From: a virus
Length of the DNA stretch: 26,723 nucleotides
IMG/VR virus record: IMGVR_UViG_3300033142_000285
Span: 1 to 26,723 of that record
Direction: 5' to 3' (one strand)
Shown piece after piece: positions 4,000 to 26,723 of this stretch. The number at the start of each line of letters is the position of its first letter. The first letter of the stretch is position 1. A program made the translations under genes and the position numbers. The notes below the pieces were generated by a model that saw only the letters and a program-made list of their open reading frames with translations, had not been told where the DNA came from and ran no database searches.

Positions 4000-5082
4000 A
4001 TGTCAAAATCAGGAAAACTAAAAATAAACAAAGAAAGATTACCTAAAACAAAAAAAGAACAAACAAGTAAAGATGCCATTCAAGAGTCAAAAACAGAGGA
4101 AGTTGTGTTACAGTCTGATGAGAAGAAGGAAGAACAAGAAGTGGGACTGCAAGAAGTGGGACAAACACACGAAGAACAAAAGACTACCGATAAAGTTGAA
4201 GAAGTAACTATTATTGAAGATAAGGAAGAAATAGAAAAACCTAAAGAAGTTGTACAAAATACTGTACAAGTTCCAGAAAATTTAGAAAAAGTCGTTTCTT
4301 TTATGAATGAAACAGGAGGTAACCTAGAAGACTACGTTAGACTTAATGCAGATTATAGTAACGTAGATGAAAAAACATTATTAAGAGAATATTATAAAAG
4401 TACTAAACCACATTTAGATGTTGATGAAATAAACTTTATATTAAGTGATAAATTTTCATATGACAAAGATGTGGCTGATGATCGTGAGATAAAAAAGAAA
4501 AATCTTGCGATGAAAGAAGAAATTGCTAAAGCTAAAACGCATCTAGTTGGACTAAAAGATAAATATTACGAGGAAATCAAGTTGAGATCTAATGTAACTA
4601 AAGAACAGCAAGAGGCTTTAAACTTTTTCAATAGATATAAAGAGAATGTAGACAAAAAAACAAAACAACATTCTGAGTTTGTGAATAAAACTAAAAACTA
4701 TTTTTCAAGTGAATTTGAAGGTTTCGATTTTAATGTGGGAAATAAAAAGTTTAGATATAAAGTATCAAACGTAGATAACATTGTTAAAAACCAGTCAGAC
4801 GTTGGAGATTTTCTAAAGACGTTCTTAGATGAAGATGGAAACGTCACAGATACAGCTGGTTACCATAAAGCTATATACTCTGCTAAAAACATAGACAAGA
4901 TTGCTAATCATTTTTATGAACAAGGTAAAGCTGATGGAGTTAAAAACATTACGGCTAACGCTAATAATATAACAACAGAAGCAAGGAAAGTTCCTAATGA
5001 CACTATGTACTTAAATGGATTACGCGTCAAAGCTATTAACGGTGTAGATACATCTAAATTAAAAATTAAAAAACGAAAGTAA
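4000..5082 (+). CDS. Capsid assembly scaffold-like protein
   Basis: A 360-residue, highly charged, largely helical protein between portal and major capsid protein, the standard position of a phage scaffold (the internal template for shell assembly that is later removed). Residues 1-90 are rich in Lys, Glu and Gln and probably disordered. They include an exact-phase duplication of a five-residue unit (QEVGL/QEVGQ). From about residue 90 there is an ordered helical region (ENLEKVVSFMNETGGNLEDY) followed by coiled-coil-like sequence to about 230. The C-terminus ends in a basic run, KLKIKKRK, a plausible capsid-binding tail because many scaffolds end in a basic helix-turn-helix. No protease gene lies next to it. 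The function is inferred from context and composition. Confidence 0.72.
   Translation: MSKSGKLKINKERLPKTKKEQTSKDAIQESKTEEVVLQSDEKKEEQEVGLQEVGQTHEEQKTTDKVEEVTIIEDKEEIEKPKEVVQNTVQVPENLEKVVSFMNETGGNLEDYVRLNADYSNVDEKTLLREYYKSTKPHLDVDEINFILSDKFSYDKDVADDREIKKKNLAMKEEIAKAKTHLVGLKDKYYEEIKLRSNVTKEQQEALNFFNRYKENVDKKTKQHSEFVNKTKNYFSSEFEGFDFNVGNKKFRYKVSNVDNIVKNQSDVGDFLKTFLDEDGNVTDTAGYHKAIYSAKNIDKIANHFYEQGKADGVKNITANANNITTEARKVPNDTMYLNGLRVKAINGVDTSKLKIKKRK
4135..4164 (+). repeat. 15-bp tandem duplication inside the scaffold-like gene
   Basis: Two adjacent copies of a 15-base unit, CAAGAAGTGGGACTG and CAAGAAGTGGGACAA, agree at the first 13 positions. They keep the frame and encode QEVGL then QEVGQ. They lie in the low-complexity, probably disordered N-terminal part of the protein, where in-frame slippage would be tolerated. 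Confidence 0.75.
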
Positions 5083-9377: not shown

Positions 9378-12300
9378 ATGGCAGAAGTAAAAAACACGTT
9401 CATCAAGTCTAAGATGAACAAAGATTTAGACGATAGATTAATTCCAAATGGTGAATATAGAAATGCTGTAAACATAAACGTATCAAAGTCTGAAGGTCCA
9501 GACGTAGGCGCTATGGAAAATGTTTTGGGTAATATTTCTATTGAGGATTTTGGTTTAGCATTAGATGAGAATATATCTATAATAGGTAAGTTCATGGACT
9601 TGTCTAATGATTTTATATTTGTTTTCATGACAGATTATACTGACTCTTCTCCAGATAAATTAAGCAACTTCGCTCCATCTTCGGCTAATCATTATATATG
9701 GAAATATGATTTAAGAAGTGATCAACCTACTTTAATTATAGGTCCACAAGGAAATCTTACATCAGGTCAAAGTTTTTTAAATTTTTCAAAAACTCACCCC
9801 ATTGACAATATTAATTTGATAGAAGATTTATTGTTTTGGACTGATAATAGAAACCAACCAAGAAAAATAAATATAGAAAGAGAATTAGGTTACTATACTA
9901 ATGAAGATCAAATATCAGTAGCTAAATATTATCCTTACCAACCTATACAGTTGTTTGATGAGGTTATAACTGGAATTACTATTATAAACTCTGGAACAGG
10001 CTATCAAACATGTTCTAATAATCCAAACTCTTGTGGTGTTCCAATGCTCGCAACTTTTGGCGCTCCAGGAAGTGGTTTAACTGTTAACATAACTGGCGTA
10101 AGTAATCCTAGTGGTAATTTCCCACCAACAGGTGGGGTAACAAACATAGAAATAAACACACCTGGAAATGGGTACGTAGATGGTCAACAGCTTTTTTTGA
10201 ACACAAAGCAAAACGGCAATGGCTGTCTAGTAGAAGTTTCAACAGAGCTTAAATGTACAATGACTAATAAGTCTGAACAATATTTTGCTGCTCCCGAAAC
10301 AGTTGAAAACGAAAATCCTAATTATGACCCAGAATGGCAAGGTGACATTGATTTTCTACAAGATAAATTTGTTAGATTTAGTTATAGATTTTTATATGAA
10401 GATGGAGAGTACTCATTAATTGCTCCATTTACTCAACCTTGTTTTATTCCTAAGCAATATGGTTATTTTAATTCAGTACCATCTTCTGATCCCAATATCA
10501 CGTGGGAAGTAAATGATCAACAAGAAGCATACGAGTCAACAATAGTTAAGTTTATGGAGAACTTAGTACAGGAAGTAACTTTTGTAATACCCTCTCCTGG
10601 CGTTAATCCTTTTGAAAATTTAAGAATAAAAGCTATAGAAATACTATATAAAGACAGTAATCAAGATTCAATAAGGGTTGTAGATACAATAAAAGGTAGA
10701 TCTTTAGAAGACAACGTGTTTGCTAACGCTTTTTATACTTATAAATCAGAGAAACCTTATAAAGCTTTACCAGCTAGAGAAATAACAAGAGTTTATGATA
10801 AGGTTCCAGTTAGAGCTCTTACTCAAGAAGTTTCTGGAAATAGAGTTATATATGGTAATTATGAAGATAGACAATCGTATCCTAAAAACATAGAATATAG
10901 AGTTGGTTTTTCAGACAAATGGCAACCTACTAATATAATATCAAACAGACCATTTGCGACTAATGCATCTATAGAATATCCTAATCACAGCGTAAAACAG
11001 AACAGAAGTTATCAGGTTGGTATAGTTTTATCTGACCGATATGGTAGACAATCTCCAGTTATATTATCTAGTAGCGATATACCTTTCAATCCTACTACTG
11101 GCTTTGGAGGAGATACAATATATGTGCCTTATAGAAATGATTTAAATGTAGTTGGGCCAAACTATGATGAAGCTGTATGGAAATGGCCTGGGTACTCTTT
11201 AAAAGTATTATTTAACAATGTTATACCTATGGGGGAAGTTGGAGCTTGGGCTACCGATAATCCTTTAGGTTGGTATTCTTATAAGATTGTTGTTAAGCAA
11301 CAAGAGCAGGATTATTACAATGTATACTTACCTGGCTTACTAAATGGTTATCCTGGCCGTAGATTTGGAGGTGGTAATGACCAAAATAATATAGCATTTA
11401 CGCCACTTATAAACGATAATATAAACAAAATACCTAGAAGGTTGAATGAAGTTGGTCCTAATGAAAAGCTTTATGGTAGTGGAGTTTTATTATATGGTAG
11501 AGTAACTAATTGGTGGTCACCAGATATATCTTCACCTACTTCATACCCAGGTATAAATTACACTAGACAATTTAATATAGCTCCTGGAAAATACGATGTA
11601 GCTGTAACTATAGGTCCTAAGTCAGATTTATCACTAAACGATATTATAATTGATGCATTAATGCCTCCATATGTTGAGGTTCCAGGCACTTCTGGAGATG
11701 GAGAATTTCCTTTTTACAATGGAAGTAACAACCCTTTGTTTGCTTCTATAGAACCGTCTTTTGAGCTTATAAACCCTAATACTGTTCCAACACCCCCAGA
11801 CAACACTATAGGTGTAGTTGGGTATCCATTTATTCAAACCCAAAATAACGATAACTGGACTTCTTTTTCTCCTCAACTAGCGGTATACGAAACTGATCCT
11901 ACTAAGTCAAAAATAGATATATATTGGGAAACAACATCAGCTGGTTTAATAAGTGAATTAAATGATGAAATAAGAACAGGTGACCCAACCCTACCGTTTG
12001 AAGTAGAAGATTGGAACTTCTTTTTACCAGAAGACCAAAGTTTATTACCAACAGGTTTATATGTTACTGATAATTTTTATTTTAAAAATCAATTAGGAAA
12101 TCAAATAAATGATATAGTAGGAGTAGACAACCTATTAGTGACTGATATATCTTTTCCTACACCTACGGTTTTAAATAATCAATTTACACTAGAATATAAT
12201 GGAGGTAATACTGCTAGAATTAAGTTAAATCCTAATATAGGTTTAGTGTATTTAGAAAATGTAAATGAAAGAATTTATGAATTTACGTTTGATGTTACTA

Positions 12301-14528
12301 CTAGCTCAGGTGTTGTAACAACATTAACAGTAGAAGGTAATTTATTAAATATACCTCCTAAATTTACTAATTTTGCTAGTAATATAAATCCAACATCTCC
12401 TCAAAACTTAAGCTTTAAAGAAGATTTCATAGGTCCTTGGGTTATTGAAGCAACTAACGGAACTAGTGTTGCTGCTAGAGATAAAGAAGAATTAAAATAT
12501 GAAATAGTAAAACAAGAACAAGTTAATGGTAATTCTATTAATAACTTTATACTAACCACGAATAACAATGGTAATATTACTACAGCTGAGTTATCAGTAG
12601 ATCCAAACAATTTATTGTTAACTGGAGATTATTTTATTGAAATAAAAGTTACAGATGCTAATGGAGTTGGTTTGAGTTCGTTCCTTACTATAAATGCTTT
12701 TGTTACAGCTCAATCAGTTACTCCCGGATTTTTTGGGCCAACAAACAATTATTACAACTTTTCATTTTCAAATGATATTGATGACAATGATGTGCCTGAC
12801 ACTGAGCCTGTTCTTAATGGAGCAGTTATAAACTTAGGTAATAAGTTTTCTATAGGTTATTGGGATACTCTTCCACCTGATGTTTTCCCGCAAAATCCAT
12901 TAACGGTTACTGGAGGACAACAATCTCAAGCTTTAGGTATTCCTTGGTTTGGTATGGGTTGGGCTATGACAAAAAGTGATTCTGGTAGTATTTACAACTC
13001 AAAAGAGTGGAATTGGGTTAATGGTGATGCTATGGAATTAGAAGGTGGATTACTCTTTGACCATAAAAGAAATAAATGGATTTATCCTTATTATGGAGAT
13101 CAATTAGGCACTGTGGAATTAGGTTACGCAAAAGCTGATGTGTGGACAGATAACAATAATACTTATAGAACTAAATTTTGGAAAGTTGGTAGATATAGCG
13201 AACACCCTTATCCTCTTGCAGCATTTGGAGTTGACCTAAGTGAAGGTACTGTAAACGTTTGTGTTGAGTTTGAATTAAAAGTTAGAGACTGGAGAAGAAC
13301 ATTAGATGACGTCGGTGAAATACTACCTGAATGGTTGTTATTTGCAGGGGTTGTTTCGCTTTTTACAAAATATAAACAAGCACCAGAGTTATACTGGATA
13401 TTAAGATCAGCTGTTGATATACAAACTAGATCTTTAAATCCTTCTAGTGGTAATTACTCTGCTTGGTCTTCTGCTTCGGATATAAACGCTAGGCCTTGTA
13501 GAGAAATATTTAATGGTAATTATCAATCTGCGCCTATTGATGCTAACTCGCTGGGTGAAGCTTTTGATAAGTCATATTCACAATCTGTAAAAGCAACTGA
13601 AACATCAGAGGCTGATTCTAATGTGCAATTGTTTTTTAATGCACCAAGTCCTCCTGATTTATCTAGTAGTTCTGGTATATTTACAAACCAAGATGTATCA
13701 GGTGGAACTGTAAAGGCTTCTTTTAATTTTGCATTTGACAATCCTGGGCAGTATAAGATATTTGTAGCTAATATGGGATCATTTAATAGCTATAGTCCAA
13801 ACGGACAGCTAAACGCTGGTTTAGGTACAGAAGCTTCTAACTTGGCTGCGGGTGGAGCTGGTGAAATAAATGGTCAACCTTGGAACTTTAGAGGTTCTAC
13901 TAGGAGTGATAACCCGATATACGGCATACCAGGTAGATGGAAAAGTCTCAGAGGTGGATCATCAACTTTTAAAAAGAATGGATGTACTGTTATAGCTAGA
14001 GAAAATGGTTCTAATACTCAAAATATAAACGCTATAGAAAAAGCGCAGTGTAATATATATGTAGAAGATATAAATTATAGAAATGGTAACTCATTTGTTT
14101 TTTACCCATTGCTTCTGTGTACAGATTATTATTCAACAAGGCAAGATGCTGAAGGAAATGCTTTAGCTAATACTTCTGGCGGTGATCCACAAGGTGTTAA
14201 TGGTATAGAAGTTTTTGCTAAATACGGTCCGCTAAGATATGTAGACAGTTTTTACGAAAGAACAGGCACACCTGGCAATTACTCTTACTCAAAATGGGTG
14301 CCTCCGTCTATACCAATAAATGAAGAAGTGTACGTAGCATACGGAACAAATCCAAGTCCACCAGCAGATTGTAATCCAGTACTTACGAGAGATCATGAAT
14401 ACTCTTGCACTTTTGATTTTTCAGTTCCAGACGATAATACTAAAAGTAGAGTTTGGACATGTAAGATAAACGCGTTTGGCGATGTATCCCTGAACGAGCC
14501 TAAAACATTATACTATTCAAAACAATAA
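9378..14528 (+). CDS. Large tail hub/nozzle-type structural protein (1716 residues)
   Basis: A very large, beta-rich, Asn/Gly/Pro/Tyr-rich protein without signal peptide or membrane segment. The N-terminus contains NKDLDDRLIPNGEYRNA (from residue 14), a signature I associate with P22 gp10-like stabilisation or crAss-like muzzle proteins, which build the distal short-tail nozzle from beta propellers. Added modules are visible: a Gly-rich domain with paired GTGY/GNGY motifs at about residues 199-287, and a cadherin/Ig-like domain at about 993-1111 ending in VTDANG. Beyond that lies a Trp- and Tyr-rich C-terminal third of no recognised fold, ending with several Cys residues. The protein is separated from its partner at 14532 by three bases. 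The tail location is inferred from position and the N-terminal signature. An adhesin role for the C-terminal part is possible but unproven. Confidence 0.75.
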   Translation: MAEVKNTFIKSKMNKDLDDRLIPNGEYRNAVNINVSKSEGPDVGAMENVLGNISIEDFGLALDENISIIGKFMDLSNDFIFVFMTDYTDSSPDKLSNFAPSSANHYIWKYDLRSDQPTLIIGPQGNLTSGQSFLNFSKTHPIDNINLIEDLLFWTDNRNQPRKINIERELGYYTNEDQISVAKYYPYQPIQLFDEVITGITIINSGTGYQTCSNNPNSCGVPMLATFGAPGSGLTVNITGVSNPSGNFPPTGGVTNIEINTPGNGYVDGQQLFLNTKQNGNGCLVEVSTELKCTMTNKSEQYFAAPETVENENPNYDPEWQGDIDFLQDKFVRFSYRFLYEDGEYSLIAPFTQPCFIPKQYGYFNSVPSSDPNITWEVNDQQEAYESTIVKFMENLVQEVTFVIPSPGVNPFENLRIKAIEILYKDSNQDSIRVVDTIKGRSLEDNVFANAFYTYKSEKPYKALPAREITRVYDKVPVRALTQEVSGNRVIYGNYEDRQSYPKNIEYRVGFSDKWQPTNIISNRPFATNASIEYPNHSVKQNRSYQVGIVLSDRYGRQSPVILSSSDIPFNPTTGFGGDTIYVPYRNDLNVVGPNYDEAVWKWPGYSLKVLFNNVIPMGEVGAWATDNPLGWYSYKIVVKQQEQDYYNVYLPGLLNGYPGRRFGGGNDQNNIAFTPLINDNINKIPRRLNEVGPNEKLYGSGVLLYGRVTNWWSPDISSPTSYPGINYTRQFNIAPGKYDVAVTIGPKSDLSLNDIIIDALMPPYVEVPGTSGDGEFPFYNGSNNPLFASIEPSFELINPNTVPTPPDNTIGVVGYPFIQTQNNDNWTSFSPQLAVYETDPTKSKIDIYWETTSAGLISELNDEIRTGDPTLPFEVEDWNFFLPEDQSLLPTGLYVTDNFYFKNQLGNQINDIVGVDNLLVTDISFPTPTVLNNQFTLEYNGGNTARIKLNPNIGLVYLENVNERIYEFTFDVTTSSGVVTTLTVEGNLLNIPPKFTNFASNINPTSPQNLSFKEDFIGPWVIEATNGTSVAARDKEELKYEIVKQEQVNGNSINNFILTTNNNGNITTAELSVDPNNLLLTGDYFIEIKVTDANGVGLSSFLTINAFVTAQSVTPGFFGPTNNYYNFSFSNDIDDNDVPDTEPVLNGAVINLGNKFSIGYWDTLPPDVFPQNPLTVTGGQQSQALGIPWFGMGWAMTKSDSGSIYNSKEWNWVNGDAMELEGGLLFDHKRNKWIYPYYGDQLGTVELGYAKADVWTDNNNTYRTKFWKVGRYSEHPYPLAAFGVDLSEGTVNVCVEFELKVRDWRRTLDDVGEILPEWLLFAGVVSLFTKYKQAPELYWILRSAVDIQTRSLNPSSGNYSAWSSASDINARPCREIFNGNYQSAPIDANSLGEAFDKSYSQSVKATETSEADSNVQLFFNAPSPPDLSSSSGIFTNQDVSGGTVKASFNFAFDNPGQYKIFVANMGSFNSYSPNGQLNAGLGTEASNLAAGGAGEINGQPWNFRGSTRSDNPIYGIPGRWKSLRGGSSTFKKNGCTVIARENGSNTQNINAIEKAQCNIYVEDINYRNGNSFVFYPLLLCTDYYSTRQDAEGNALANTSGGDPQGVNGIEVFAKYGPLRYVDSFYERTGTPGNYSYSKWVPPSIPINEEVYVAYGTNPSPPADCNPVLTRDHEYSCTFDFSVPDDNTKSRVWTCKINAFGDVSLNEPKTLYYSKQ
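9972..10238 (+). other. Gly-rich GTGY/GNGY domain inserted in the 1716-residue tail protein
   Basis: Residues 199-287 contain two related motifs: IINSGTGYQT and, about 50 residues later, IEINTPGNGYVDGQ. They are separated by a Gly/Pro-rich segment (GAPGSGLTVNITGV). Two Cys flank the first motif (C212, C219) and one follows the second (C283), with another just outside at 293. Such paired GxGY strands occur as small beta modules in phage tail proteins. The flanks before and after read as continuous hub sequence, so this appears to be an insertion. Confidence 0.5.
12354..12710 (+). other. Cadherin/Ig-like domain in the 1716-residue tail protein
   Basis: Residues about 993-1111 start with PPKFTN, a common linker entry to cadherin-like repeats. 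They continue with alternating hydrophobic strands and finish with GDYFIEIKVTDANGVG (VTDANG at 1091-1096) followed by a last strand. This is the familiar end of a cadherin or Ig-like repeat. Only one clear copy is seen, possibly preceded by a second, more diverged one at about 930-990. Confidence 0.5.
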
Positions 14529-14531
14529 ATA

Positions 14532-16301
14532 ATGCCAGCAGTAATTGAAGTTAAATTTTTTAATACATTTCTTTTAAAGAAAATACCAAGAGCAAACACA
14601 ACTGGATCTATACCTGAAGGAGAAGGTGTGGATGGTAGATACCCTGTTTACCCAGGTATACCTGAGTGGGGTGTAGATGGATATGTTTGGCCAAATAGTT
14701 TGATATCACCCGTAGATGATGTAACTTTAAAAGCGTCTTGGTTTATAGAAGAATCAAGAATAAGAGGTGGATATAATAATAGCATAGTCGACTTAGGCGT
14801 TAGAGCTTACGCTACTGAAGATCAAGAATTAAATAAACAAAGATTTAATTCGCTTATATATTCTGGTATATATAATTCTAGAACAGGAGTTAATGACACT
14901 AATGTTTTTAGCGTAGGTGAAGCAATAACAAAAAGTTTAGATCCAACAAATGGCTCTATACAAAAAATATATGCAGAAGACACTAATTTAATAATTTTCC
15001 AAGAAAACAAAGTAAGTAGAGCTCTTATAGATAAAGACGCTATATATTCTGCTGAAGGAGGTGGAGCTGTTACTTCTTCTAACTTAGTAATTGGTCAAAT
15101 AATTCCTTATGCTGGACAATATGGCATAAGTAGAAACCCTGAATCTTTTGCTAAGTTTGGGTATAGAAAATATTTCACCGATAGAAACAGAGGTGTTGTG
15201 ATGAGATTATCTAAAGACGGTATGACTGAAATATCTAGATATGGTATGACTGATTACTTTAGAGATAACTTAGCATTGATATCTGAAGACTGGCAGCTTA
15301 AGAAACAATTTTTTGAATTAGATACAAATAATATAAACCCTACAGGACAGCAAGATATTACTATATTTTTAGACGACGATAATTGGCCGGTGCTAGGAGC
15401 TGAACTAACTATACTAGATGCTAACAACGTTTTAAATTTTACAGCTTATATAACAAAAATCATACATTTAGGAGGTAATAAGTTTAATTTAGAATTAAAT
15501 AGAGCAATTCTTATATTATCTCCAGGAGATTATAGAGGTTCTTATTTAAGCTACTATGTGAAATCTAAAGTAGTTGGTGGTTATGATATACATAATCAAA
15601 ACTATGTTTTATCACTACAGCCTAGTCCTAACTACACTGCTGATGAAAATTATAAAGATATTGAAAGTTATGCAACCCTAGCTTTTGATGAAGATATAAA
15701 TGGTTGGACAAGTTTTTATACTTATAAACCTACATTTATAGATAGTTTAAAAGGTAATTATTATAGTTTTATAGGTAATAGTATTTATAAGCATTATAAT
15801 TTAGAACCTAATACAAGAAATTTATTCTATGGTTTATATAATGACTCTTTAGTAGACTTTGTTTTTAATCCAAACCCATCTATAGTTAAGAACTTTCAAA
15901 CTATATCATATGAAGGTAACAGCGGTTGGGAAGTTGATGAGTTTGCGTCTGGCTTTGAAGGAGTGTCTTTAAACATTGATCCTACTTCTTTAACACCGTG
16001 GGTACAACATAGAGACACTACAGCTCAAGTACTATCATATGAAGCTGGAAAATATACTAATAATAACATACAGTATAATGCTGGCTTTGCTAGAAAAGAA
16101 AATTTATATGTAGCTAATTTAGTTAACAACAGTGAGCCTAGGTATGGTGAGGTTGTATTTGGACCTGATAATTATGGTGGATATCCTACCACAGGTATTA
16201 AAGGATTTTTCGCCACTGTTAGAATGTCCACAGATCAAACTACAGAAGTTGGTGGTTTGAAAGAATTATTTGCAGCTTCATCTAAATTCGTCAAATCATG
16301 A
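14532..16301 (+). CDS. Second tail hub-type structural protein (589 residues)
   Basis: A beta-rich protein that starts three bases after the stop of the 1716-residue gene (TAAATAATG), so the two are very likely co-translated partners. The opening VIEVKFFNTFLLKK and the central block with KVSRALIDKDAIYS, NPESFAKFGYRKYFTD and GVVMRLSKDGMTEISRYGM look like blades of a propeller or beta hub. I remember these in uncultured marine phage tail genes, sometimes linked to the upstream type of sequence. No membrane segment or enzyme motif is seen. The gene ends with TGA overlapping the next start (ATGA). A companion of the tail nozzle is the best guess; whether the two proteins derive from one split gene is unknown. 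Confidence 0.7.
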   Translation: MPAVIEVKFFNTFLLKKIPRANTTGSIPEGEGVDGRYPVYPGIPEWGVDGYVWPNSLISPVDDVTLKASWFIEESRIRGGYNNSIVDLGVRAYATEDQELNKQRFNSLIYSGIYNSRTGVNDTNVFSVGEAITKSLDPTNGSIQKIYAEDTNLIIFQENKVSRALIDKDAIYSAEGGGAVTSSNLVIGQIIPYAGQYGISRNPESFAKFGYRKYFTDRNRGVVMRLSKDGMTEISRYGMTDYFRDNLALISEDWQLKKQFFELDTNNINPTGQQDITIFLDDDNWPVLGAELTILDANNVLNFTAYITKIIHLGGNKFNLELNRAILILSPGDYRGSYLSYYVKSKVVGGYDIHNQNYVLSLQPSPNYTADENYKDIESYATLAFDEDINGWTSFYTYKPTFIDSLKGNYYSFIGNSIYKHYNLEPNTRNLFYGLYNDSLVDFVFNPNPSIVKNFQTISYEGNSGWEVDEFASGFEGVSLNIDPTSLTPWVQHRDTTAQVLSYEAGKYTNNNIQYNAGFARKENLYVANLVNNSEPRYGEVVFGPDNYGGYPTTGIKGFFATVRMSTDQTTEVGGLKELFAASSKFVKS

Positions 16302-17035
16302 ATCCAACAGCTTTAAATGCGATACTTACAACAACAAGCGTTGGATCACCAACAAATAATAATATGACAGATAATCAAAAAATGGCTCTAGGACTTGGAG
16401 GTGTTGGAGCTTTAGGCGGTATTGCGACTAGCATTATGGCTAATGGCAAAGCAAAGGCCCTCAATAATCAAATATCTCAATATGAAGGAGATATAAGAAT
16501 GTTAGAAAATCAAAGACCACCAATAACTGATCCATACGAAAATATAAAAGACACATCTAGCTTTATATCTAACCCGTTTGAAAATTTATCGGTAGCTACA
16601 CAAGCAGCTAAAATACAGATGGACGAAACAGATATAGCTTTAGCAAATACTTTAGATACTATACAAAGATCTGGCATGGGTGCTGGTGGTGCTACAGCTT
16701 TAGCCAATGCGGCAGCATCTAGTAAAAGAGCTGTTGCTTCTAGCATAGAGCAGCAAGAAGTTAACAATGAAAAACTTAGAGCTCAAGGAGAGCAACAAGC
16801 TCAACAAGCAAGACAAGCAGAAGCTATAAGACTACAAAATGCAGATGTAGCAGGAGAGCAATTTGTGTTCCAGCAAGAAGATGCTAGAGTTATGCAACAA
16901 TTAAATAGAAAACAAGCCATGTTAGATAACACATTGGCTCAACAAGCGCAGTACCAATCTGACTCTATGACTGCTCTTGGTGATGCTTTTGGAGGGTTAT
17001 CATCAACAGCTGCAGCTTTTGCAGGTAATAAATAA
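16298..17035 (+). CDS. Putative internal virion (ejection) protein, 245 residues
   Basis: The start overlaps the preceding stop by four bases (ATGA), a strong sign of translational coupling. Residues 29-48 form a Gly/Ala-rich hydrophobic segment (LGLGGVGALGGIATSIMA) able to span a membrane. Residues about 50-70 and 140-215 are Gln/Ala/Glu-rich coiled coil. A central NPFENLSVATQAAK plus GAGGATALANAAA block resembles the pattern of T7 gp14-like internal proteins in marine podoviruses. Such proteins are ejected ahead of the DNA and line a channel across the cell envelope. The gene closes with two successive stop codons (TAATAA). The call is from composition, hydrophobic segment and position between tail and giant ejection-type genes. 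Confidence 0.68.
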   Translation: MNPTALNAILTTTSVGSPTNNNMTDNQKMALGLGGVGALGGIATSIMANGKAKALNNQISQYEGDIRMLENQRPPITDPYENIKDTSSFISNPFENLSVATQAAKIQMDETDIALANTLDTIQRSGMGAGGATALANAAASSKRAVASSIEQQEVNNEKLRAQGEQQAQQARQAEAIRLQNADVAGEQFVFQQEDARVMQQLNRKQAMLDNTLAQQAQYQSDSMTALGDAFGGLSSTAAAFAGNK

Positions 17036-17041
17036 TAAGAT

Positions 17042-18952
17042 ATGGGAACGTACGAGCAACCAGGGTTAGTATTAGATAAGAGCATGGGCCAACTTGCTGC
17101 AGGTATAAAAGCAGGTGTAGACAAAGGTCAAGCAATATTAAAAGCAGATCAAGATAGAAAAGCTAAGTTAGCGCTAGCAGAAGCAAAAGAAAAAGCTAGA
17201 CAAGAAGCAAAAGTAAAAGCTAATTTAGAAAAATTAAAGCAAAAAAGAATTGACAATATTGCTGACATAAATGGTAGTATACAGAGAAGTTACAAGCCAG
17301 GAGCTACTCAAGGACTTATTTCTAGAAAAACGGTTGGTAATGTAACTACTGTTACTTCCGAGCAAGTAGACGCTTCAGATCCTAGTTTAAGTAGAGATAC
17401 TGAAATGGGAATGCAAGGGCTATGGGTGTCTACATTAGAAGGCATGACTGATGAATTAGAAAAAATACAATTTGATACACCAGAATACAAAGCGTTAGAG
17501 CAAGATATAAAAACATTAATAGAATTAGGTGGAGTAGGAAATCAGATGATGGACAAAGGTGTCCAAATATGGGAAGACTCTTTTATGTATGATCCTACTT
17601 CAAAAAAATTAATAAGAAAACCATATGCTAGTAATGGCGCAAGTATATATGGTCAAGACGTAATGAGAGAAAACATGGCTATAGCTTGGAGTAATGGTGG
17701 TAAAGATCCAATAACAGGAGAACAGGCGGTGTCATATGTGGTTAAAGGAAATAAAGTAGGTGTTAAATACGTTGATCCAGTGATAGCAAAACAACAAGTC
17801 GGGAAAAAACAAGGAGATCCAGATTACATTGATCCTGATGAGTATACGTTTTTTCAAGATTACTCTCAAAAAATTAAAGGAACTAATAAATATGGAACTG
17901 AGTTTTGGCAGGTGGCAGATGTTGATGAATTTGATAAAAAACTACAAAGAACTTGGAATCAATTTGACAATGGTTATAGTGCTGAGATAACAAGAATACA
18001 AAACCTTAGCGGAAATCAAATAACTACTCAAACAGTGAAAGACTATGATAAAGCTAATGAAGACTTAAGAGCTAGGATGACTTCAGATGATGCTATTAAA
18101 AATCTAAACATGGATCCTAATACATGGCAGATGATACGTCGACCTGGTGATCCTGAGAAATGGGAACCTACAGAAGAACTTAGAACACTGGCTGCTGAAA
18201 GAATGGCTGACAAATGTATAAACACTTTTGGTAAACCAAGTGTAATGAATACAACATTAAAAGATGCTAGAACAAAAGCTGATCAAGAATTAAAAGTACA
18301 GGCAACGGTGGAAGGCTTTGCCGGTCTAGACACTCTACCTATGTATACAAGTTTCTTTGATAATTCTCCTTTGAAAAGCAGGGTTAATAATTCTGGAATT
18401 AAGTTTGGTGAGTCTGGATACAAGTACACTGTTCAGGAGTTAGATAAATTATCTAGAGAAATAAGTGGTGGTGGAGCTGTAGGTCAAACTATACTAGTAG
18501 ATGTATTAAACCAATCAGGAGGTAGAGGCGGAATGCAGCAATACATAAGTGGCAGTAAATTAATGCAAGAGACAGCAGATAATTTTGCTGACGAAGCTAT
18601 AGCTGGTGGAGTTAGTGTTGTTGATAGAAACAATATGACAAGAGTTGAAAAAGAAGACATAATAAACTGGGCTATTAACGATATTGACCCATCTACAGGA
18701 AATCCTAGATTGTCATCCGGTTATCAAAGTTTAGACCCTAATAAAGTTTACGATAAGTCAAATGTTAAAAAAGCTTTTGATACACAGAATGATAGAAATG
18801 TTTTAAGAATATTATTAGATCAGTTCGTAACGCCTACAAACGCACAAAAAGTTTTAGACATGAACCCTGATCCAAACAGTTCTGATTATATAGCGCTACA
18901 GCAAGCACAAGATGAATTTAACGCTCAAGAAGCATCACAAGGTTTTGCATAA
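17042..18952 (+). CDS. Putative internal virion protein, 636 residues
   Basis: The gene lies six bases after the 245-residue gene. The N-terminus has a short head (YEQPGLVLDKSMGQLAAGI) followed by a strongly Lys/Ala/Glu-rich coiled coil at about residues 25-80. The remainder is mostly helical, with repeated Asp/Asn/Gly turns (for example ITGEQAVSYVVKG, ISGGGAVGQT). No catalytic motif, signal peptide or clear membrane segment was seen. Between the T7 gp14-like gene and the giant protein, this is the place where podoviruses encode a second ejection protein. That is the basis of the call; no family is recognised with confidence. Confidence 0.62.
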   Translation: MGTYEQPGLVLDKSMGQLAAGIKAGVDKGQAILKADQDRKAKLALAEAKEKARQEAKVKANLEKLKQKRIDNIADINGSIQRSYKPGATQGLISRKTVGNVTTVTSEQVDASDPSLSRDTEMGMQGLWVSTLEGMTDELEKIQFDTPEYKALEQDIKTLIELGGVGNQMMDKGVQIWEDSFMYDPTSKKLIRKPYASNGASIYGQDVMRENMAIAWSNGGKDPITGEQAVSYVVKGNKVGVKYVDPVIAKQQVGKKQGDPDYIDPDEYTFFQDYSQKIKGTNKYGTEFWQVADVDEFDKKLQRTWNQFDNGYSAEITRIQNLSGNQITTQTVKDYDKANEDLRARMTSDDAIKNLNMDPNTWQMIRRPGDPEKWEPTEELRTLAAERMADKCINTFGKPSVMNTTLKDARTKADQELKVQATVEGFAGLDTLPMYTSFFDNSPLKSRVNNSGIKFGESGYKYTVQELDKLSREISGGGAVGQTILVDVLNQSGGRGGMQQYISGSKLMQETADNFADEAIAGGVSVVDRNNMTRVEKEDIINWAINDIDPSTGNPRLSSGYQSLDPNKVYDKSNVKKAFDTQNDRNVLRILLDQFVTPTNAQKVLDMNPDPNSSDYIALQQAQDEFNAQEASQGFA

Positions 18953-18967
18953 TTAAATATAATAAAA

Positions 18968-21900
18968 ATGTATAAATTTCAAGATAAAGTTTACAGTGAA
19001 GATCAGTTAAATAAAATAGCTGAAGTAAAAGGATATTCACTAGAAGAATTAATGGGTAAAAATCCTGAGATAACTCTAGTTGAAGAAGAAGAGGGAGATG
19101 ACAAAGATGATAAAAAGAAAAAGAAAGAAAAGAAGGCTAAAGTGGGAAAGCCGTCAGGCCCTGTTGTGGCAGAAAAGACTCAACCAACGGGGCCTCAGAA
19201 TACGGTTTTAGACTCGGAAAATTCTTCTTTGGATTCGTTCAAAATTACTGATATAAAACCTTCTGAAACATTTATTAAAGAAAGTGAAGATCAAAAAGAG
19301 AAAGAATTAGAGCTTCAAAAGAAGCTTAACTTAATGAGTTTACCCAACTACTCAAAAGATGACAGCGGTAATGTAAATATTTTTACTCCTCCAACCGGAT
19401 GGTCAATGCCTATGAACAAGCAAGATAATTTTTTCGAAGGTATTGATATGAATGGAATAATCACGCCATATGATGAGCAAGGACCTGATTACTTCAAAAG
19501 AGGAAATCAAATATATAATGAAGATTATGAAGAGGGTAGAGGACAACCTGGTTTTATGGAGCAGGATCGTATAAGAATTCAAAAAGAAGGTTATACAGGG
19601 CAAGTAAATAATTTGGAGTCACAATATGAATTTGAACAAGGTTTGCTTTACAGCAAAATACACTCTAAAGGTTCTGCTGTTCAAGTGCCAATTGAGAACG
19701 CTATATACAAAGCTTTGTCAGAAGGTGGTCAAACTATAGCTGGAAATAGATTAGCTGACATAACACTGTACCCACATACTAATCATGAGAAGTTTGCTTT
19801 TGCTGATGTTGTAATGAAAACATTAGCAGCTAATACTGGAGATGACGTTTTCTACAGTAAAAGCGGAAGCGCTGAAGGTGTTACACAGGAGGATGCACCT
19901 TCGTTTTTTTACACTTCTGCAACGGTAGTGCCAACTTTTATATACGATCCAAGAGACAGTGAAGCAGATGAAGTTTACAAAAAAGCTTTAAAAATGCTAG
20001 ATAACTGGAACATAACGTTACCTGATCTTCAAAATAGGAAATCTCAAGCTGTAGAAAAAGACTTATATAAAGATGACTTAATAAAATACGGAGATACATA
20101 TAGTGTAAATAAGTTTATAGAAAAAGAAGGATCTTATTATTTAAGTGGAGATGAAAAGATTATAGCTTCGCTAGAGGATCAAAGAGCTACTATGCAAGCA
20201 GAGATAAGTAATTTATCTAACTCGCCTGAAAAAGCGCTTGAAGCTCAAAAAGAATTAGACAGAATAGAAGAAAGACTTACCGAGTTAAAAGGAGAAGGTG
20301 TTAGACAGCTTTATGATCCAGCAACAGGCTCTTTTGTTGATGCTACGAAAGCTAGTGAAGAAGCTAAAACTTTAGATGAAAAGACATTTGAAGACGCAGA
20401 AGAAATAGTAGCTAATAACGATTACGAAGCTATAGTAGCTTGGAGAAGAAATTCTTACTATAAGTTAAGATCTTTAATGAAAGAAGCTTCAAGTGCTGAT
20501 TTAAAAGGTGAAATGTCACTTGTTGAAGACATCGAACAACTTATTGTAGATGTAGGTAAATTTGGTGGATTTTCTGATATAACAGGAGGAACGGGGCCAG
20601 GCGACGTTATAGAAAGAGTACAAAAAAGAGGTGCTAAAGGAGAAGAAGTAGGTTATATTCCAGGTAAAATTCCTGGAAGTCATGTACTTTCGAGTCAAGT
20701 TGAAGAAGCTTTAGAACAGTTTATAACACTTAATAAAGCTGTTGAGTTAAACATAAACCCTTTAACACAGGAAAAAGATAATTTAGGAGTTGAATTTATA
20801 GACGAGGTTTATTATAATATATTTGGAGAAAGAGTTTCTAGTAGAACAGGAAGCGGAAATTACTTTCCATTAGGTAATAGAGAGCAAAAACAACACTTTG
20901 CTAACGCGTTTGCCATGAACAACTATAATCTTAATTCTACACAGTTAGAAGTATTAGATAAAAGTATAACTGAAATGGCTACATTAGATGTGTTACCTCC
21001 GTTAGTTCCTTTAATATCCACTATAGTAATAGCTAAAAAAACACCTACTTGGTCAGCAACTACTAAATACATCGACAAGATTGGTAACTTATTAAAAGGT
21101 GGTGGAAAGTCTAGGCTATGGAACAACACTGTTGATATCTTATGGGGTAGTGGTGTTTCTACTACAGGTGGACAAAGTGCTTTGAAAGAAACCTTATTAC
21201 TTTCTGGAGCTGAAAAAATAAACGCTGAACTTTACGGATCGGAGCAAGGTAATGTTTTAATGGGTACATCTTTAGGTGCAAATAATGCTGCGTTGTCTAA
21301 GATGTCAAATAAAATATTATTAGGGAGAATACCTTTAGTTAGCCCTTTGTTAAGGCAAATTGAAAGAGCAGAGTCAAGACTATCTAAAGGCGTAGGTTTA
21401 GTCACTAAGCCAATTGTTGGTGGTGGAACTGCCACTGGAACAATGATAGTTTCTGAAGCTGTAGTATTGGAAATAGAATCCTTAAAAGAAAATGGTAAGT
21501 TTGCTGAAGCTGCAGAACTTGAAAAACTCACAGAAACTGAACATGTATTAAGTACATTCTTTGCTATGACCGCTATGCAAATGTCTAGTGGTACTTATAG
21601 AAATGTAAAGGATCTATTGTCTAAAGATATACAGAAAATGCCTTTAGAAACCCCAGAGGTTAAATCAGCTTTAGATCTTTTAGGTTTAGAACTAGAATCT
21701 AAAGATGGTAAAAAAGGTGTTAACGATATGTCTTCTGCTGAATTAGATGCAACTATAGAGTCATTGTTCATTGAAAAAAATGGAACAGATCCTAGTTTCA
21801 TTAACAAGTCTATAGAAGGTCCAATTCAGTTTGATCCTTATAGAGCAGAAAAAACAAAATATGTCGAAGCAAGAAATGTTTTAAATACCTACAAAGACAT

Positions 21901-24900
21901 AAAGTTCGCTAAAGTACAAGCTGATAATTACCTTAGTGAAAAAAATGTGCTAGAAAGAAATAAGATATTAGATGAAGTAGACTTGATAGCTCGTAAAATG
22001 AAAGCAGGCATTGATCTAACTAATAAAGAAAATGATTTCTTAGCTAATCTACCTGACCAAGGTTGGAATTCAGGAGTGTTACTAGGTGAAGCAATTGGAG
22101 GAAAATCCTATAAGGATAATACTCAAATGGTTAATGATATTAATAAACGTATTGAGAATGCTCAGCAAAATCAAAGAATAGTAAACGATTATGGTTATGA
22201 ACCTGGATCTGCTAAAGCAGAAAAACTAACTACTGACTTAAACAATTTAAACGCTATTCAAAACAACTTGAATACTGCTAAAAACAAACTAAAGACAGCT
22301 GATGGTTCTACTAGAATGATATTGGAAAATGAAATTGAAAGCAATAAACTACAGTATGACCAAAAAGTTGAAGAAATAAAAGCAGATAACTTAAAGCATG
22401 ATAAAGTTATAGAAAAAAGGTTATTAGAAGCAGCAGAAGAAGTTGTAGCTATGAACACAGGTGCTGAATTAATTATGCCTCCCACTGTAGATGAATTCCA
22501 GAAAATGCATGAAGCTGAAAATCCAGAGTCAAATAAAGATGTAAGAAAAATGGATGCTTTTATTTCTGGTAATAAATTAATTATTAATAAAGCAAGAGCT
22601 ATTGAGACAAGAGCTATTACTGCACCTAAGCATGAGCTGTTTCATTATCTATTTAGAAACTCATATAAAGAACCTGCTACTATAGTAAATGAAAAAGGAG
22701 AGACTATAAAAAATCCTGAAGCTGGTAAAATGACTAAGGAGGGATTAAAATTAGTTGAAGATTTCAAAAATAGTTTATCTGAATCTCAAAGAAGATTAAT
22801 CAACGAAAGAATAGATAATAATTACAGATATGAGAAGAATGATAAAGGAGAATTTATTAGAGATGAACAAGGTAACAGAATAGAAAGACCTGAAAATGAA
22901 TATGCTGAAGAGGTTTTTACAGCTGCAATAGATTTAAGAGGTAGTAATAAAATAAAGAAAAAACAATTAGAAAAAATTGTAGACTATATTAGACCTACTT
23001 TTCCTAATCTAAAGATTGGCAGTGGTCAAGAAGTAATAGAAATGATTAAAACTCTTGATAAACCTACTAGTAGAAATAAGAAAGCTATTGAACAATTTGA
23101 TGCTAAGCAAGGGGAAGTAGGGCAAGATGTTAAGTATTCTGAAAATGTAACAAACACAGAAGCTCTTGATTTATATAGAGAGAAAAAGTCGCTTATTGAA
23201 GCTAATCAACAACTAATAAAAGAAAAAGCTCCAAACTATTTAGATAAAGCTAAAGAAAATTCTATTAAAATAGCTGAGATAAATAAGAAAATGGAAGACA
23301 AAGGTGCTCAGGTTAATCTTGTTTATGAATTAAATAAAGATGTTTTCTTAGGTAAACCTTTGAAAGAATATTCCCCAACAGAGCTAGAAAACCTTAGTAA
23401 AGTATTAGCAAAAACAAGGATTGATAAAACTGATTCTCAAGGAAATCCAATATATAAGACTGACGTTAAAACTAACAAGCCAGGTAATGTTGTTGACAAA
23501 GAAACAATGCCAGGTTTAGGCGATTTATATACTGAATATGCTACTAAAATAGCTCAAAAATATAAAAACTTACCTGACTATAATGAAGCAGATTTTGTTC
23601 AAACGCTACTATATGGTGATATAGGTAATAAAAAATCAAGAGGTTTATTATCTATATTATCTATATTTAAAGGTGGAGAGAACAACAGCTTAAACGCTTT
23701 TGTAAATAGACACCTTAAGGAAAGAGCTAAAGAAATAGCTGCAGAACTAGATACTGAAGCTGGATTTAAAGGTGAATTAGATGTAAACATGAAAGCTAAA
23801 GATCAAAACATGTTTACTAAAGAAGATACTTCTCCTAAACAAGTTGCTTCTACTGTTTTAAAGAATGTAGACACTGATGGTAAAATAAGAAGTTCTATTA
23901 TAGATTTAGCAAAAGACATTGAGGTAAGTAAAGAGGCTTTAAATAAGGAGATAAAACAAAAAAGCGATCCTTTTTTAACTGACTTAAGATCTACTGTTAA
24001 AAGCGACAAGGTTGTTAAACAAGTTAAAAATTCTTTAGGAACTAGAAAACAATATGAAGATAACTTAAACAAGGTTTATGAAGATGTTAAGAAAATAATA
24101 ACCAATGACGTCAGTGTAGCCGTAGATGCTAAGTGGTTTCCATTTTACGAAGTTGGAGGAACAGCAAAAGTTTCTGACGCTAGAACTGCTGGATCTAAAA
24201 TAAAAAATGAAAAAGCAGGAAATAATATAAATATACCTGTAGACTTTACTAAAGAAAATTTTGTAGACTACATGTTAGGTAAGGGTGAGTGGGCTTTCAA
24301 ACACGACTCTAAAGGTAATATTATATACAAAGACGGTATGCCTCAGGAAATATCAGCAGGTACTCCGGGTAATAGGAAAGATAGACTAGCTTTGATGATA
24401 GCAGAGCAAGCTATAAGAGATGCTTTACCTCAAGTTAAAAGCGAGCAGTTAACAAATAAATCTAATGAACTAGAAAAAATATTAGATGAAATTAAAAAGC
24501 AAGATCAAGATTTAAGAGGTGTAAACTATAAAGATCCAAAATTAATAGAGTTAGCTAAAGAAAGAAAAAACATTGTAGACGAATTAATGACTAACAATGT
24601 TGAACAAGTTGTTGCTAGCTTAGCTGATAAACTTAAAGTTAATCCTAATACTAAATTTTCTGAAACTAAAATAAAAGATTTAGAAGAAATATTAAATGAT
24701 TTTAGAAAGTCAGATACTAAGGATATAGTAACATTAGAATCTATAGTTAATAGTAAAGGTAATTTATCTGATGATGAGAAAGGTATTATAGTTTCAGATC
24801 TTAACAAAAAGTATAATTCTATACTAGAAAAAGGTAGCACAGGAGATATTGCCCAAGCTAAAGAAGTTAAGAAGCAAGAGTTAATAGAAAAATACGGAGA

Positions 24901-26723
24901 AGAAGAAGGTAAAAAGCTTTTCGAAGAATTAGATAAAATAGAAATATCACAAGGTAAAAACTGGAATGACACTACTAAAGATCTTAATACTGAGTTTAAA
25001 GATATGCTACCAAAAGATACTGATGGTAATAGTATACCTTTTGAGACTCCAACAGGTAAAAATGGTTTACAACAGGTCATGCAAGATCCTGTTAGGAAAG
25101 CTTCTTATGATAAAACTCAAACAAGTATATTAAACAGATTAGAACCATCTTTAATTAACTCTGGTGTATTAACTACCTCAATGGGTTATAACTCTCTTAA
25201 AGTTCCAGTAAAGGGCAAAGGTGGTAAAGTGGAAATGAAAAACCTAAGTAAGTCTTTAAAGTTAAATAAAGAAACTGGAATTTGGGAAACTACTAAAGAA
25301 AAAAGAACTGAAAGTCAATTAATAAATGATTTATTAGATGGTGAAATCAAAGGAACGGTTAACGAACAGGTTGCAAAAGATATAGCTGGTTCTAATATTA
25401 TAGATCCAGGTAGAGTTAAAAAAGAAGTTAATGACTGGATGGAAAGCAAAGGCTTAAAAGAAGGAGAAACCCTTTCACCTGAACTAAGATCTGAGTTAAG
25501 AGACTTTGTAAGAAAAAGAGTGGCTGGTAAAGAGGGTGATTTAGAAGGCGTCATGGCTGCTAATAAAAACCTTCGTGATCATTATTATGTTGACGGTGTT
25601 TACGCAGAACTACAAGCCGCTTACGAAAAAGGACCTAATGCTTTAAAAGAAGCTGTTGATAATGTAAACAAGCAGTTTCAGATACAAACCAATATAAGCA
25701 AAGGTATTATAAAAGGTACAGCTACTGTTAAAGACGTTTCTATAAAAAGAGGTGATCAAAGTATTGAAAAAAATATAAGTGGTTTACATTCCGAACATTA
25801 CTTACAACTTCAAAAGTTTCATGATACATTTATAAAACAAGCATTAAAGAATATAGATAACCCTGCAGAATTTAAAAAAGTTTACGAGGAATTAAGTACT
25901 GAATTTGAACAAGGCTTAGTAGCTAAAGAATATCAGATGCGTTATGACTCTAAAGCGGAAGGTGGACCAGCAATGTACAGTGGTCCTACACCTTTAACTT
26001 TAGGTACATCAAACTTTCAAGGAGGTACTTATTTAGATGGTAAAGGACTTAATGTTGGTAATAGTATGCTTGATCTTACTACTGGCAAAACAATAACAGA
26101 AAAAATTGTAGAAGCAGGATTTACTGGTGAAGTGGATATGTACACTAAAAACTTTCAAGAAGTTCTTAAAGATATAGAAAACTACGAGTTTGGAAGTAAA
26201 ACATTAGATAACCCAACTATTGAAGTAGGTTTAAACAATCTTGCTGGTCAAGGTTTAGATGCTATGAATGGCAAAGGTGATCCTTACAAAGTTGGTATTT
26301 TAGCCGAACAGGTTAAAAGACAAATGGAAAACATGGACGCAACTAATAGAGTCCAAGACAGAAATATAGAAGTATCCGGTAGCATACCATATAGTGGCAA
26401 TAAGTTTTCTAGTAATGTAAATCCTTTAGAATTATCAACTCAAAAATCCTTACAAGAGATACAGCTAGAAGATGCTTTAAATAAAATGGGTAACGAACTA
26501 AACAAGAAACCTGCTGAGGTTATTATGTTTGATGCTGATGGTGTTTTATTGAATGATCCAGATGCTAAGGTTAAAGCAACTATGCCAAATGGTAAAGTTA
26601 TAGAATTAGATGGTGTTCAGTATGCTAAAAGAGGAGAGAAGTTAGCAGCTAAAGGTGCGGAGTTTAACTTCGACATGTTTGATGGTATTACTGATGTTGC
26701 TGTACCAGCTAAGATGTTGCCAG
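18968..26723 (+). CDS. Giant multidomain virion/ejection protein (at least 2585 residues, 3'-truncated)
   Basis: One frame without a stop runs from ATG 18968 to the window end. Residues 1-35 form a small helical head (YSEDQLNKIAEVKGYSLEEL). Residues 39-58 pass from an acidic to a Lys-rich run, probably disordered. Coiled coils lie near 401-445 and 1087-1165. Hydrophobic helices lie near 675-690 (VLPPLVPLISTIVIA) and 809-836. An HExxH site is at 1222-1226 with a possible third ligand at E1311 or E1314. A conserved-looking SLNAFVNRHLKERAKEI is at 1574-1590, and a GNRKDRLALMIAEQAI helix at about 1801-1816. A HAD-like FDADGVL starts at 2521. These order and composition features match the giant polyvalent proteins described for phages, which are packed in the head and delivered with DNA. 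Their enzymatic role in the host is unproven. The start follows TATAATAAAA, with A at -3. Confidence 0.85.
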   Translation, partial: MYKFQDKVYSEDQLNKIAEVKGYSLEELMGKNPEITLVEEEEGDDKDDKKKKKEKKAKVGKPSGPVVAEKTQPTGPQNTVLDSENSSLDSFKITDIKPSETFIKESEDQKEKELELQKKLNLMSLPNYSKDDSGNVNIFTPPTGWSMPMNKQDNFFEGIDMNGIITPYDEQGPDYFKRGNQIYNEDYEEGRGQPGFMEQDRIRIQKEGYTGQVNNLESQYEFEQGLLYSKIHSKGSAVQVPIENAIYKALSEGGQTIAGNRLADITLYPHTNHEKFAFADVVMKTLAANTGDDVFYSKSGSAEGVTQEDAPSFFYTSATVVPTFIYDPRDSEADEVYKKALKMLDNWNITLPDLQNRKSQAVEKDLYKDDLIKYGDTYSVNKFIEKEGSYYLSGDEKIIASLEDQRATMQAEISNLSNSPEKALEAQKELDRIEERLTELKGEGVRQLYDPATGSFVDATKASEEAKTLDEKTFEDAEEIVANNDYEAIVAWRRNSYYKLRSLMKEASSADLKGEMSLVEDIEQLIVDVGKFGGFSDITGGTGPGDVIERVQKRGAKGEEVGYIPGKIPGSHVLSSQVEEALEQFITLNKAVELNINPLTQEKDNLGVEFIDEVYYNIFGERVSSRTGSGNYFPLGNREQKQHFANAFAMNNYNLNSTQLEVLDKSITEMATLDVLPPLVPLISTIVIAKKTPTWSATTKYIDKIGNLLKGGGKSRLWNNTVDILWGSGVSTTGGQSALKETLLLSGAEKINAELYGSEQGNVLMGTSLGANNAALSKMSNKILLGRIPLVSPLLRQIERAESRLSKGVGLVTKPIVGGGTATGTMIVSEAVVLEIESLKENGKFAEAAELEKLTETEHVLSTFFAMTAMQMSSGTYRNVKDLLSKDIQKMPLETPEVKSALDLLGLELESKDGKKGVNDMSSAELDATIESLFIEKNGTDPSFINKSIEGPIQFDPYRAEKTKYVEARNVLNTYKDIKFAKVQADNYLSEKNVLERNKILDEVDLIARKMKAGIDLTNKENDFLANLPDQGWNSGVLLGEAIGGKSYKDNTQMVNDINKRIENAQQNQRIVNDYGYEPGSAKAEKLTTDLNNLNAIQNNLNTAKNKLKTADGSTRMILENEIESNKLQYDQKVEEIKADNLKHDKVIEKRLLEAAEEVVAMNTGAELIMPPTVDEFQKMHEAENPESNKDVRKMDAFISGNKLIINKARAIETRAITAPKHELFHYLFRNSYKEPATIVNEKGETIKNPEAGKMTKEGLKLVEDFKNSLSESQRRLINERIDNNYRYEKNDKGEFIRDEQGNRIERPENEYAEEVFTAAIDLRGSNKIKKKQLEKIVDYIRPTFPNLKIGSGQEVIEMIKTLDKPTSRNKKAIEQFDAKQGEVGQDVKYSENVTNTEALDLYREKKSLIEANQQLIKEKAPNYLDKAKENSIKIAEINKKMEDKGAQVNLVYELNKDVFLGKPLKEYSPTELENLSKVLAKTRIDKTDSQGNPIYKTDVKTNKPGNVVDKETMPGLGDLYTEYATKIAQKYKNLPDYNEADFVQTLLYGDIGNKKSRGLLSILSIFKGGENNSLNAFVNRHLKERAKEIAAELDTEAGFKGELDVNMKAKDQNMFTKEDTSPKQVASTVLKNVDTDGKIRSSIIDLAKDIEVSKEALNKEIKQKSDPFLTDLRSTVKSDKVVKQVKNSLGTRKQYEDNLNKVYEDVKKIITNDVSVAVDAKWFPFYEVGGTAKVSDARTAGSKIKNEKAGNNINIPVDFTKENFVDYMLGKGEWAFKHDSKGNIIYKDGMPQEISAGTPGNRKDRLALMIAEQAIRDALPQVKSEQLTNKSNELEKILDEIKKQDQDLRGVNYKDPKLIELAKERKNIVDELMTNNVEQVVASLADKLKVNPNTKFSETKIKDLEEILNDFRKSDTKDIVTLESIVNSKGNLSDDEKGIIVSDLNKKYNSILEKGSTGDIAQAKEVKKQELIEKYGEEEGKKLFEELDKIEISQGKNWNDTTKDLNTEFKDMLPKDTDGNSIPFETPTGKNGLQQVMQDPVRKASYDKTQTSILNRLEPSLINSGVLTTSMGYNSLKVPVKGKGGKVEMKNLSKSLKLNKETGIWETTKEKRTESQLINDLLDGEIKGTVNEQVAKDIAGSNIIDPGRVKKEVNDWMESKGLKEGETLSPELRSELRDFVRKRVAGKEGDLEGVMAANKNLRDHYYVDGVYAELQAAYEKGPNALKEAVDNVNKQFQIQTNISKGIIKGTATVKDVSIKRGDQSIEKNISGLHSEHYLQLQKFHDTFIKQALKNIDNPAEFKKVYEELSTEFEQGLVAKEYQMRYDSKAEGGPAMYSGPTPLTLGTSNFQGGTYLDGKGLNVGNSMLDLTTGKTITEKIVEAGFTGEVDMYTKNFQEVLKDIENYEFGSKTLDNPTIEVGLNNLAGQGLDAMNGKGDPYKVGILAEQVKRQMENMDATNRVQDRNIEVSGSIPYSGNKFSSNVNPLELSTQKSLQEIQLEDALNKMGNELNKKPAEVIMFDADGVLLNDPDAKVKATMPNGKVIELDGVQYAKRGEKLAAKGAEFNFDMFDGITDVAVPAKMLP
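22631..22645 (+). other. HExxH zinc-metallopeptidase-like site in the giant protein
   Basis: Codons for H-E-L-F-H (residues 1222-1226) follow a helix-like lead KARAIETRAITAPK. About 85 residues later comes ENEYAEEVFTAAID (E1309-D1322), which could supply the third metal ligand (E1311 or E1314), as in gluzincin-type peptidases. The surrounding pattern, a strand ending in INKARAIET before the motif, recalls a peptidase-like domain in giant proteins of uncultured phages. Activity is not shown. Confidence 0.6.
26519..26723 (+). other. HAD-like phosphatase N-terminal motif in the giant protein (cut by window)
   Basis: Residues 2518 onward read VIMFDADGVLLNDPDAKV, then a TMPNGKVIEL strand and a GAEFNFDMFDG segment. 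A hydrophobic strand ending in DxDGV (nucleophile D2522, second Asp D2524) is motif I of haloacid dehalogenase-fold phosphatases. The following strands match the remembered phage subgroup that usually reads FDxDDTL. Motifs II-IV lie beyond the window. Confidence 0.6.

Follow-up and report, generated by a model that had tools for sequence, protein, structure and literature searches.

A giant polyvalent-type protein with zincin-like and HAD-like domains ends the late gene block of an environmental phage

What kind of protein is encoded by the last 7.7 kb of the virus record IMGVR_UViG_3300033142_000285, and does it travel in the phage particle? The record is a linear fragment of 26,723 bases, and the window analysed here covers it entirely. 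A first-pass annotation made from the sequence alone had read this region as a single frame without a stop, encoding a giant polyvalent-type virion protein. The frame stands. It begins with an ATG at position 18968 of the + strand and runs through 2585 codons to 26722, with base 26723 left over and the 3' end missing. Because the record itself ends at base 26,723, the missing part of the giant was deduced from relatives.

Judged by its genes, the source is a podovirus akin to the Flavobacterium elemo phages and to Cellulophaga phages. Twelve consecutive genes, all on the + strand, are read as a single late block in the order terminase, portal, scaffold position, capsid, structural genes, muzzle-type tail protein, two genes and the giant. 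The terminase large subunit (2-1570; phrog_6681, E=5e-116) lost its 5' end at the contig start, and the profile matches from position 231. It is 66% identical to that of the Manatee Spring podovirus (MW202828) and 47% identical to those of Flavobacterium elemo phages, and it also matches Cellulophaga and Tenacibaculum phages. The portal protein (1571-3976; phrog_6547, E=1e-144) is followed by a gene whose putative scaffold role is assigned from its position (4000-5082; homologues lie between portal and capsid in L002, L003, L004 and L007), and by a virion structural protein in the capsid position (5095-6555; phrog_13704, E=2.5e-96), the L007 homologue of which is annotated as major capsid protein.

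The tail-hub/muzzle protein is encoded by one gene in phage phi38:1 (gp97, 1324 aa) and by two in the window (9378-16301), which are 3 bases apart. The first (9378-14528, 1716 aa) is strongly enlarged and corresponds to the N-terminal part of the relatives' gene, matching phrog_14478 positions 1-180 and aligning with the start of phi38:1 gp97. The second (14532-16301, 589 aa) corresponds to the C-terminal part and matches Pfam crAss_MUZ_C above the cut-off (E=4.6e-9); many environmental relatives match it from residue 1. A 245-aa protein (16298-17035) and a 636-aa protein adjoining the giant (17042-18952) occupy, by gene order, the positions of phi40:1 gp98/gp99 and gp100, respectively.

The giant is composed of modules recognised by profiles from which the window was left out. 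It starts with an N-terminal tag (residues 1-40, 18968-19087; E=9.5e-5) common to about 19 giants, and a charged low-complexity linker defined by sequence composition (residues 41-110, 19088-19297). The charged head that had been described is indeed there, with 41% charged residues over positions 1-110. A conserved module containing both hydrophobic segments (residues 428-860, 20249-21547; E=6e-70) is common to the giants of L061, L067, L013 and L025, and in part to that of L016. The zincin-like metallopeptidase domain (residues 1131-1445, 22358-23302; E=2.8e-31) has one long helix immediately before its core in the AlphaFold2 (AF2) model. Segment 1518-1722 (23519-24133; E=2.8e-8) is present in 39 giants, and module 2191-2338 (25538-25981; E=2.6e-5) also in those of L016 and L061. 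The frame breaks off within a HAD domain, of which the N-terminal part is left (residues 2498-2585, 26459-26722; E=1.3e-11).

When the window-free profiles were scored against the window frame and 200 shuffled copies of it, none of the copies reached the window scores for the zincin domain, the sigma-like segment, the HAD fragment, the tag or module 428-860. The frame is therefore not a chance product, since its modules match window-free profiles and relatives have a similar long frame at the same place. That the frame is chimaeric, or an artefact of assembly or of a frameshift, as the open end and the lack of a close relative spanning the whole frame might suggest, is extremely improbable in view of six modules that match independent profiles in the same order as in other contigs, and of frames of 2100-3340 aa at the giant's place in relatives from many samples. 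The whole giant, searched directly in viral_contigs, phages, Pfam, PHROGs and PDB, gave nothing usable, and neither it nor a full-length relative resembled any of 50,697 deposited phage records in sequence. Phmmer matches to the 'putative surface protein' 6qo1/6roc and to a laminin chain were set aside as weak and probably due to helical similarity.

Relatives were collected with the neighbouring muzzle gene, for which at least 541 relatives were confirmed; 80 loci were taken among the matches listed. Where these loci are long enough to tell, the giant is at the same place, which yielded about 50 environmental relatives. Iterated profiles built over 55 giants detect an N-terminal tag of 30-40 residues, the hydrophobic module in five or six giants, the zincin domain in about 45, the post-zincin segment in 39 and the HAD domain in 19. 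All environmental giants whose C terminus is included in the contig also have a core of about 690 residues there. Among 6029 frames examined, the zincin, HAD and post-zincin modules occur solely inside long giant frames, never alone, and the tag solely at the start of giants or of cut giants. By these profiles the architecture is clear: a tag, a variable middle with the zincin domain, an optional HAD domain and a constant core.

UniProt contains several close relatives (39-44% identity) among proteins of uncultured viruses; members of the family are therefore already in databases, without description. By our searches, the giants form a large environmental family that lacks a description in the libraries searched. 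GTDB contigs from metagenome-assembled genomes assigned to Aliivibrio, Woesearchaeota, Maricaulis and other taxa (L194-L198, L201) also carry the phage giant or core. As the bins belong to very different taxa, these contigs are most likely misbinned phage, and therefore give no host.

An HExxH site had been noted in the giant, and it is present as H1222-E-L-F-H1226 (22631-22645). The site lies in a recurrent domain family, and the structure model agrees with a zincin topology. In an alignment of 39 sequences (A2), the invariant columns are solely the H, E and H of the motif and one downstream glutamate, E1315 (22910-22912), a putative third zinc ligand. The AF2 model of the domain, with a mean pLDDT of 80 and more than 90 in the core, runs from a helix through a strand, a second helix and two strands to the HExxH helix and a later helix with the glutamate. 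The HExxH helix and later-helix glutamate that characterise gluzincin-type zincins are provided by H1222, E1223, H1226 and E1315. A Foldseek search of PDB gave weak matches, the first of which was anthrax lethal factor (E=0.84, probability 0.23), itself a zincin. Iyer et al. name lethal factor as the template for the metallopeptidase (MPTase) group of polyvalent proteins, and the zincin topology that they give for this group is that of our model (PMC5512222). The giant gp21 of Flavobacterium phage elemoA_7-9A also has the domain (E=1.9e-17 against a profile built without gp21). Matches of relatives to Pfam DUF2608, Peptidase_M78 and SprT-like were set aside, as they involve few members and weak E-values.

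The second enzyme-like site of the first-pass annotation was found as well, as D2522-A-D2524-G-V (26531-26545), which conforms to HAD motif I, DxDx[T/V]. Comparison with relatives indicates that it opens a real HAD domain, the first 88 residues of which are within the window. Motifs II (T/S), III (K) and IV (DD) fall past the contig end and are invariant in relatives, whose conserved columns are D34xD36, LT113AR, K150 and D169D170. A separate HAD search, with at least 521 relatives, returned DxDDT, LTAR, K and DD as invariant in 80 loci among the matches listed. In the AF2 model of one relative (L101, 871 aa, pLDDT 75), the HAD part is built of alternating strands and helices, and among PDB structures a class C acid phosphatase matches best (probability 0.98). 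The motif belongs to a recurrent domain family. The window fragment is divergent, with about 30-37% identity to relatives and FDADGV in place of FDFDDT; therefore, the window HAD domain might be inactive. Searching with the HAD fragment alone led to L008, which was discarded because the match was fortuitous and lay in an unrelated structural gene.

Phage polynucleotide kinase/3'-phosphatase (PHROG 415) shares the HAD motifs of the giants and matches 13 of 18 members of the HAD family (best E-value 4e-8). In contrast to this enzyme, the giants have the phosphatase-type HAD part only, fused into a much larger polypeptide, and the window copy is incomplete. The HAD relatives appear closest to phage polynucleotide kinase/phosphatase, which points to nucleic-acid ends as the target rather than the envelope, which the first-pass annotation had proposed alongside host targets.

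Like the shared N-terminal tag and the conserved core past the contig end, a sigma-region-2-like segment was missing from the first-pass annotation. The first ~85 residues of segment 1518-1722 (23519-23767, + strand) resemble sigma-70 region 2 at the family level. Searches of PDB with profile A5 gave sigma factors as the first two matches (E 0.01, 0.024) and as several others, and the larger profile A6 gave its first sigma-factor match at E=0.003. Pfam Sigma70_r2, run over 40 related records, matches four giants below the cut-off, always on the post-zincin segment as located from locus coordinates. In a profile-profile comparison, the segment aligned with sigma factors over 68 collinear columns (E=8.5e-5), compared with E>0.08 for five other giant modules. 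None of 150 permuted targets and one of 150 permuted queries, an outlier, reached this score. The window segment alone has no match in Pfam, the sigma C-terminal half including region 4 (-35 recognition) gave no match, and, as we read the alignment, the segment has not kept the polar residues through which E. coli sigma contacts beta-prime. The segment is likely, by profile similarity, a distant relative of sigma-70 region 2, and is not classed as a sigma factor because it lies inside the giant rather than standing alone.

The same scan detected an ordinary, separate sigma gene of ~250 aa in each of 11 records out of the 40 (L181-L191, corresponding to G002, G004, G010, G016, G017, G021, G026, G032, G035, G038 and G042). 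The conserved product of these genes starts with MKKYNVQNYIRYKEDL or similar. The giant could be imagined as a virion-borne transcription starter, whose metalloprotease frees the sigma-like module before the phage's own separate sigma factor is made, and whose freed module, having entered the cell with the DNA, steers host RNA polymerase to early phage promoters. We consider this idea rather unlikely.

The C-terminal core corresponds to a region of the window protein past the contig end. From the start of the HAD domain to the stop, most closed loci have ~863 residues; therefore, the expected full length of the window giant is ~3,360 residues, of which ~775 are missing. The core has no sequence match in Pfam, PDB or INPHARED, and PHROGs match the HAD part only. 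It is predicted to be all-helical in relatives. Its predicted fold matches viral MuF C-terminal, PolyVal ADP-ribosyltransferase, ART-PolyVal and Large polyvalent protein associated domain proteins (probability 1.00). A further match, to a structural protein of Tenacibaculum phage Gundel_1, superposes poorly (TM 0.17). Sequence searches did not find the core in the giants of elemoA, Manatee Spring or Cellulophaga phages.

A giant is the last structural gene in the inspected relatives that have the window's gene order: gp21 of elemoA (3694 aa), the Manatee Spring protein (3859 aa), phi38:1 gp101 (1691 aa) and phi19:3 gp129 (1871 aa). The elemoA protein (Elemovirus) shares position and zincin family with the window giant, and differs from it in lacking the HAD domain and in having no tag or core recognisable by sequence. 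The Manatee Spring giant (L002, 741-12320) contains HExxH twice, each time in a different context, and its annotation as a reticulocyte binding/rhoptry protein is very probably a misannotation. The gp101 proteins of phi40:1 and phi38:1 (Pervagoviridae) are large and last in the same structural block, and the phi40:1 copy was detected in virions, its record bearing the note 'experimental MS/MS proteomics analysis'. Unlike the window giant, they have 1691 aa and no HExxH motif; as no sequence homology to the window giant was found, the comparison is one of position. The notes in the phi38:1 record (L004, KC821614) cite 'phi18:1_gpNN' as reference. This label seems wrong, because phi18:1 is a 39-kb phage (PMC11946311) and it is the phi40:1 genes that bear the experimental MS/MS notes.

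The combination of zincin domain, HAD fragment and sigma-like segment, unrelated domains predicted in one polypeptide, agrees with the definition of polyvalent proteins by Iyer et al., who found zincins to be their commonest domain and proposed self-processing (PMC5512222). Like N4 virion RNA polymerase and P1 DarB/DdrB, the giant is very long, has several unrelated domains including the common, though not universal, zincin MPTase with HExxH, distal Glu and agreeing topology, and is encoded among late virion genes, after those for terminase, portal, capsid and tail. It differs from them in that no RNA polymerase, helicase-methylase or ART domain was found, with HAD and sigma-like modules instead; no polymerase family matched it in Pfam, PHROGs or PDB. 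The text of Iyer et al. (PMC5512222) mentions neither 'phosphatase' nor 'sigma', and a limited literature check found no virion polyvalent protein bearing a sigma module.

Because the gene has the same position as phi40:1 gp101, elemoA gp21 and phi38:1 gp101, and because the core fold matches MuF, PolyVal and Large polyvalent protein associated domain proteins, we favour, with a probability of roughly 0.68, a polyvalent protein that is packaged in the virion and injected, and that bears zincin and HAD modules. Of the initial reading as a polyvalent-type virion protein, the multi-domain frame within the late block holds, and the virion location is suggested by position. The same core fold and the MS/MS detection of phi40:1 gp101 make it improbable that the giant is instead an unpackaged late intracellular protein, a maturation protease and repair enzyme encoded beside virion genes, a role that would suit a zincin serving head maturation and the fact that the MS/MS link to the giant family is by position only.

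Two hydrophobic helices had also been reported. Segment 670-688 (20975-21031) is clear, with a Kyte-Doolittle mean of 1.82, and segment 816-834 (21413-21469) is borderline, its mean of 1.43 being under the usual cut of 1.6. Since the latter is borderline and aligned relatives vary from 0.8 to 2.1, transmembrane status is doubtful and the case for membrane spans is weak. The segments bear on whether the giant is chiefly an internal virion protein of an ejection channel, like crassvirus gp45 or T7 gp14-16, in which the hydrophobic module would insert into the inner membrane, helical regions would line the conduit and the zincin would merely trim. The gene follows the tail genes, both segments are within a conserved module, the elemoA and phi38:1 giants each have one hydrophobic stretch, and gp45 has a predicted transmembrane helix according to the crassvirus atlas (PMC10172136). 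We nonetheless consider a channel unlikely, as the hydrophobic peaks are weak and variable, the module is limited to five or six giants, and a conduit has no need of the zincin, HAD and sigma-like modules and their conserved sites.

The frame, its gene position, the homology of the zincin and HAD domains, the conservation of the zinc site and the architecture of the relatives were obtained directly; from them we infer packaging, injection, exit order, cleavage, both substrates and every enzyme activity. As a packaged polyvalent protein, the giant would be made late with virion proteins and packed into the particle, with the helical C-terminal core serving as packaging scaffold, as the C-terminal part does in N4 virion RNA polymerase. 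It would leave through the tail N-end first, led by the short tag and the charged disordered head. The cargo proteins gp45-gp50 of crassvirus phi-crAss001, a phage that shares the tail muzzle domain with the window, are carried in the capsid and the tail and are probably ejected, with unfolding proposed during ejection; they include RNA polymerase-associated giants, and the relevant sections of the atlas describe no zincin/HAD giant (PMC10172136). In the cell, the zincin could cut the polypeptide in cis or in trans and release the modules, a step to which we give an even chance. Cleavage is not a given, because N4 virion RNA polymerase, which has a peptidase domain of this kind, enters the particle uncut (PMC5512222). 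More tentatively, and with the odds against it, the freed modules might act early, when the HAD domain would be a phosphatase with nucleic-acid 3' ends as its most likely substrate and the sigma-region-2-like segment would make contact with host RNA polymerase.

With at least 541 tail-gene relatives and at least 521 HAD-domain relatives, the giant family is common in environmental virus contigs. It would extend the polyvalent repertoire by a phosphatase-type HAD domain and a sigma-like segment. As the architecture is clear, the hypotheses of packaging, processing and early function may be tested in cultured elemo and Cellulophaga phages.
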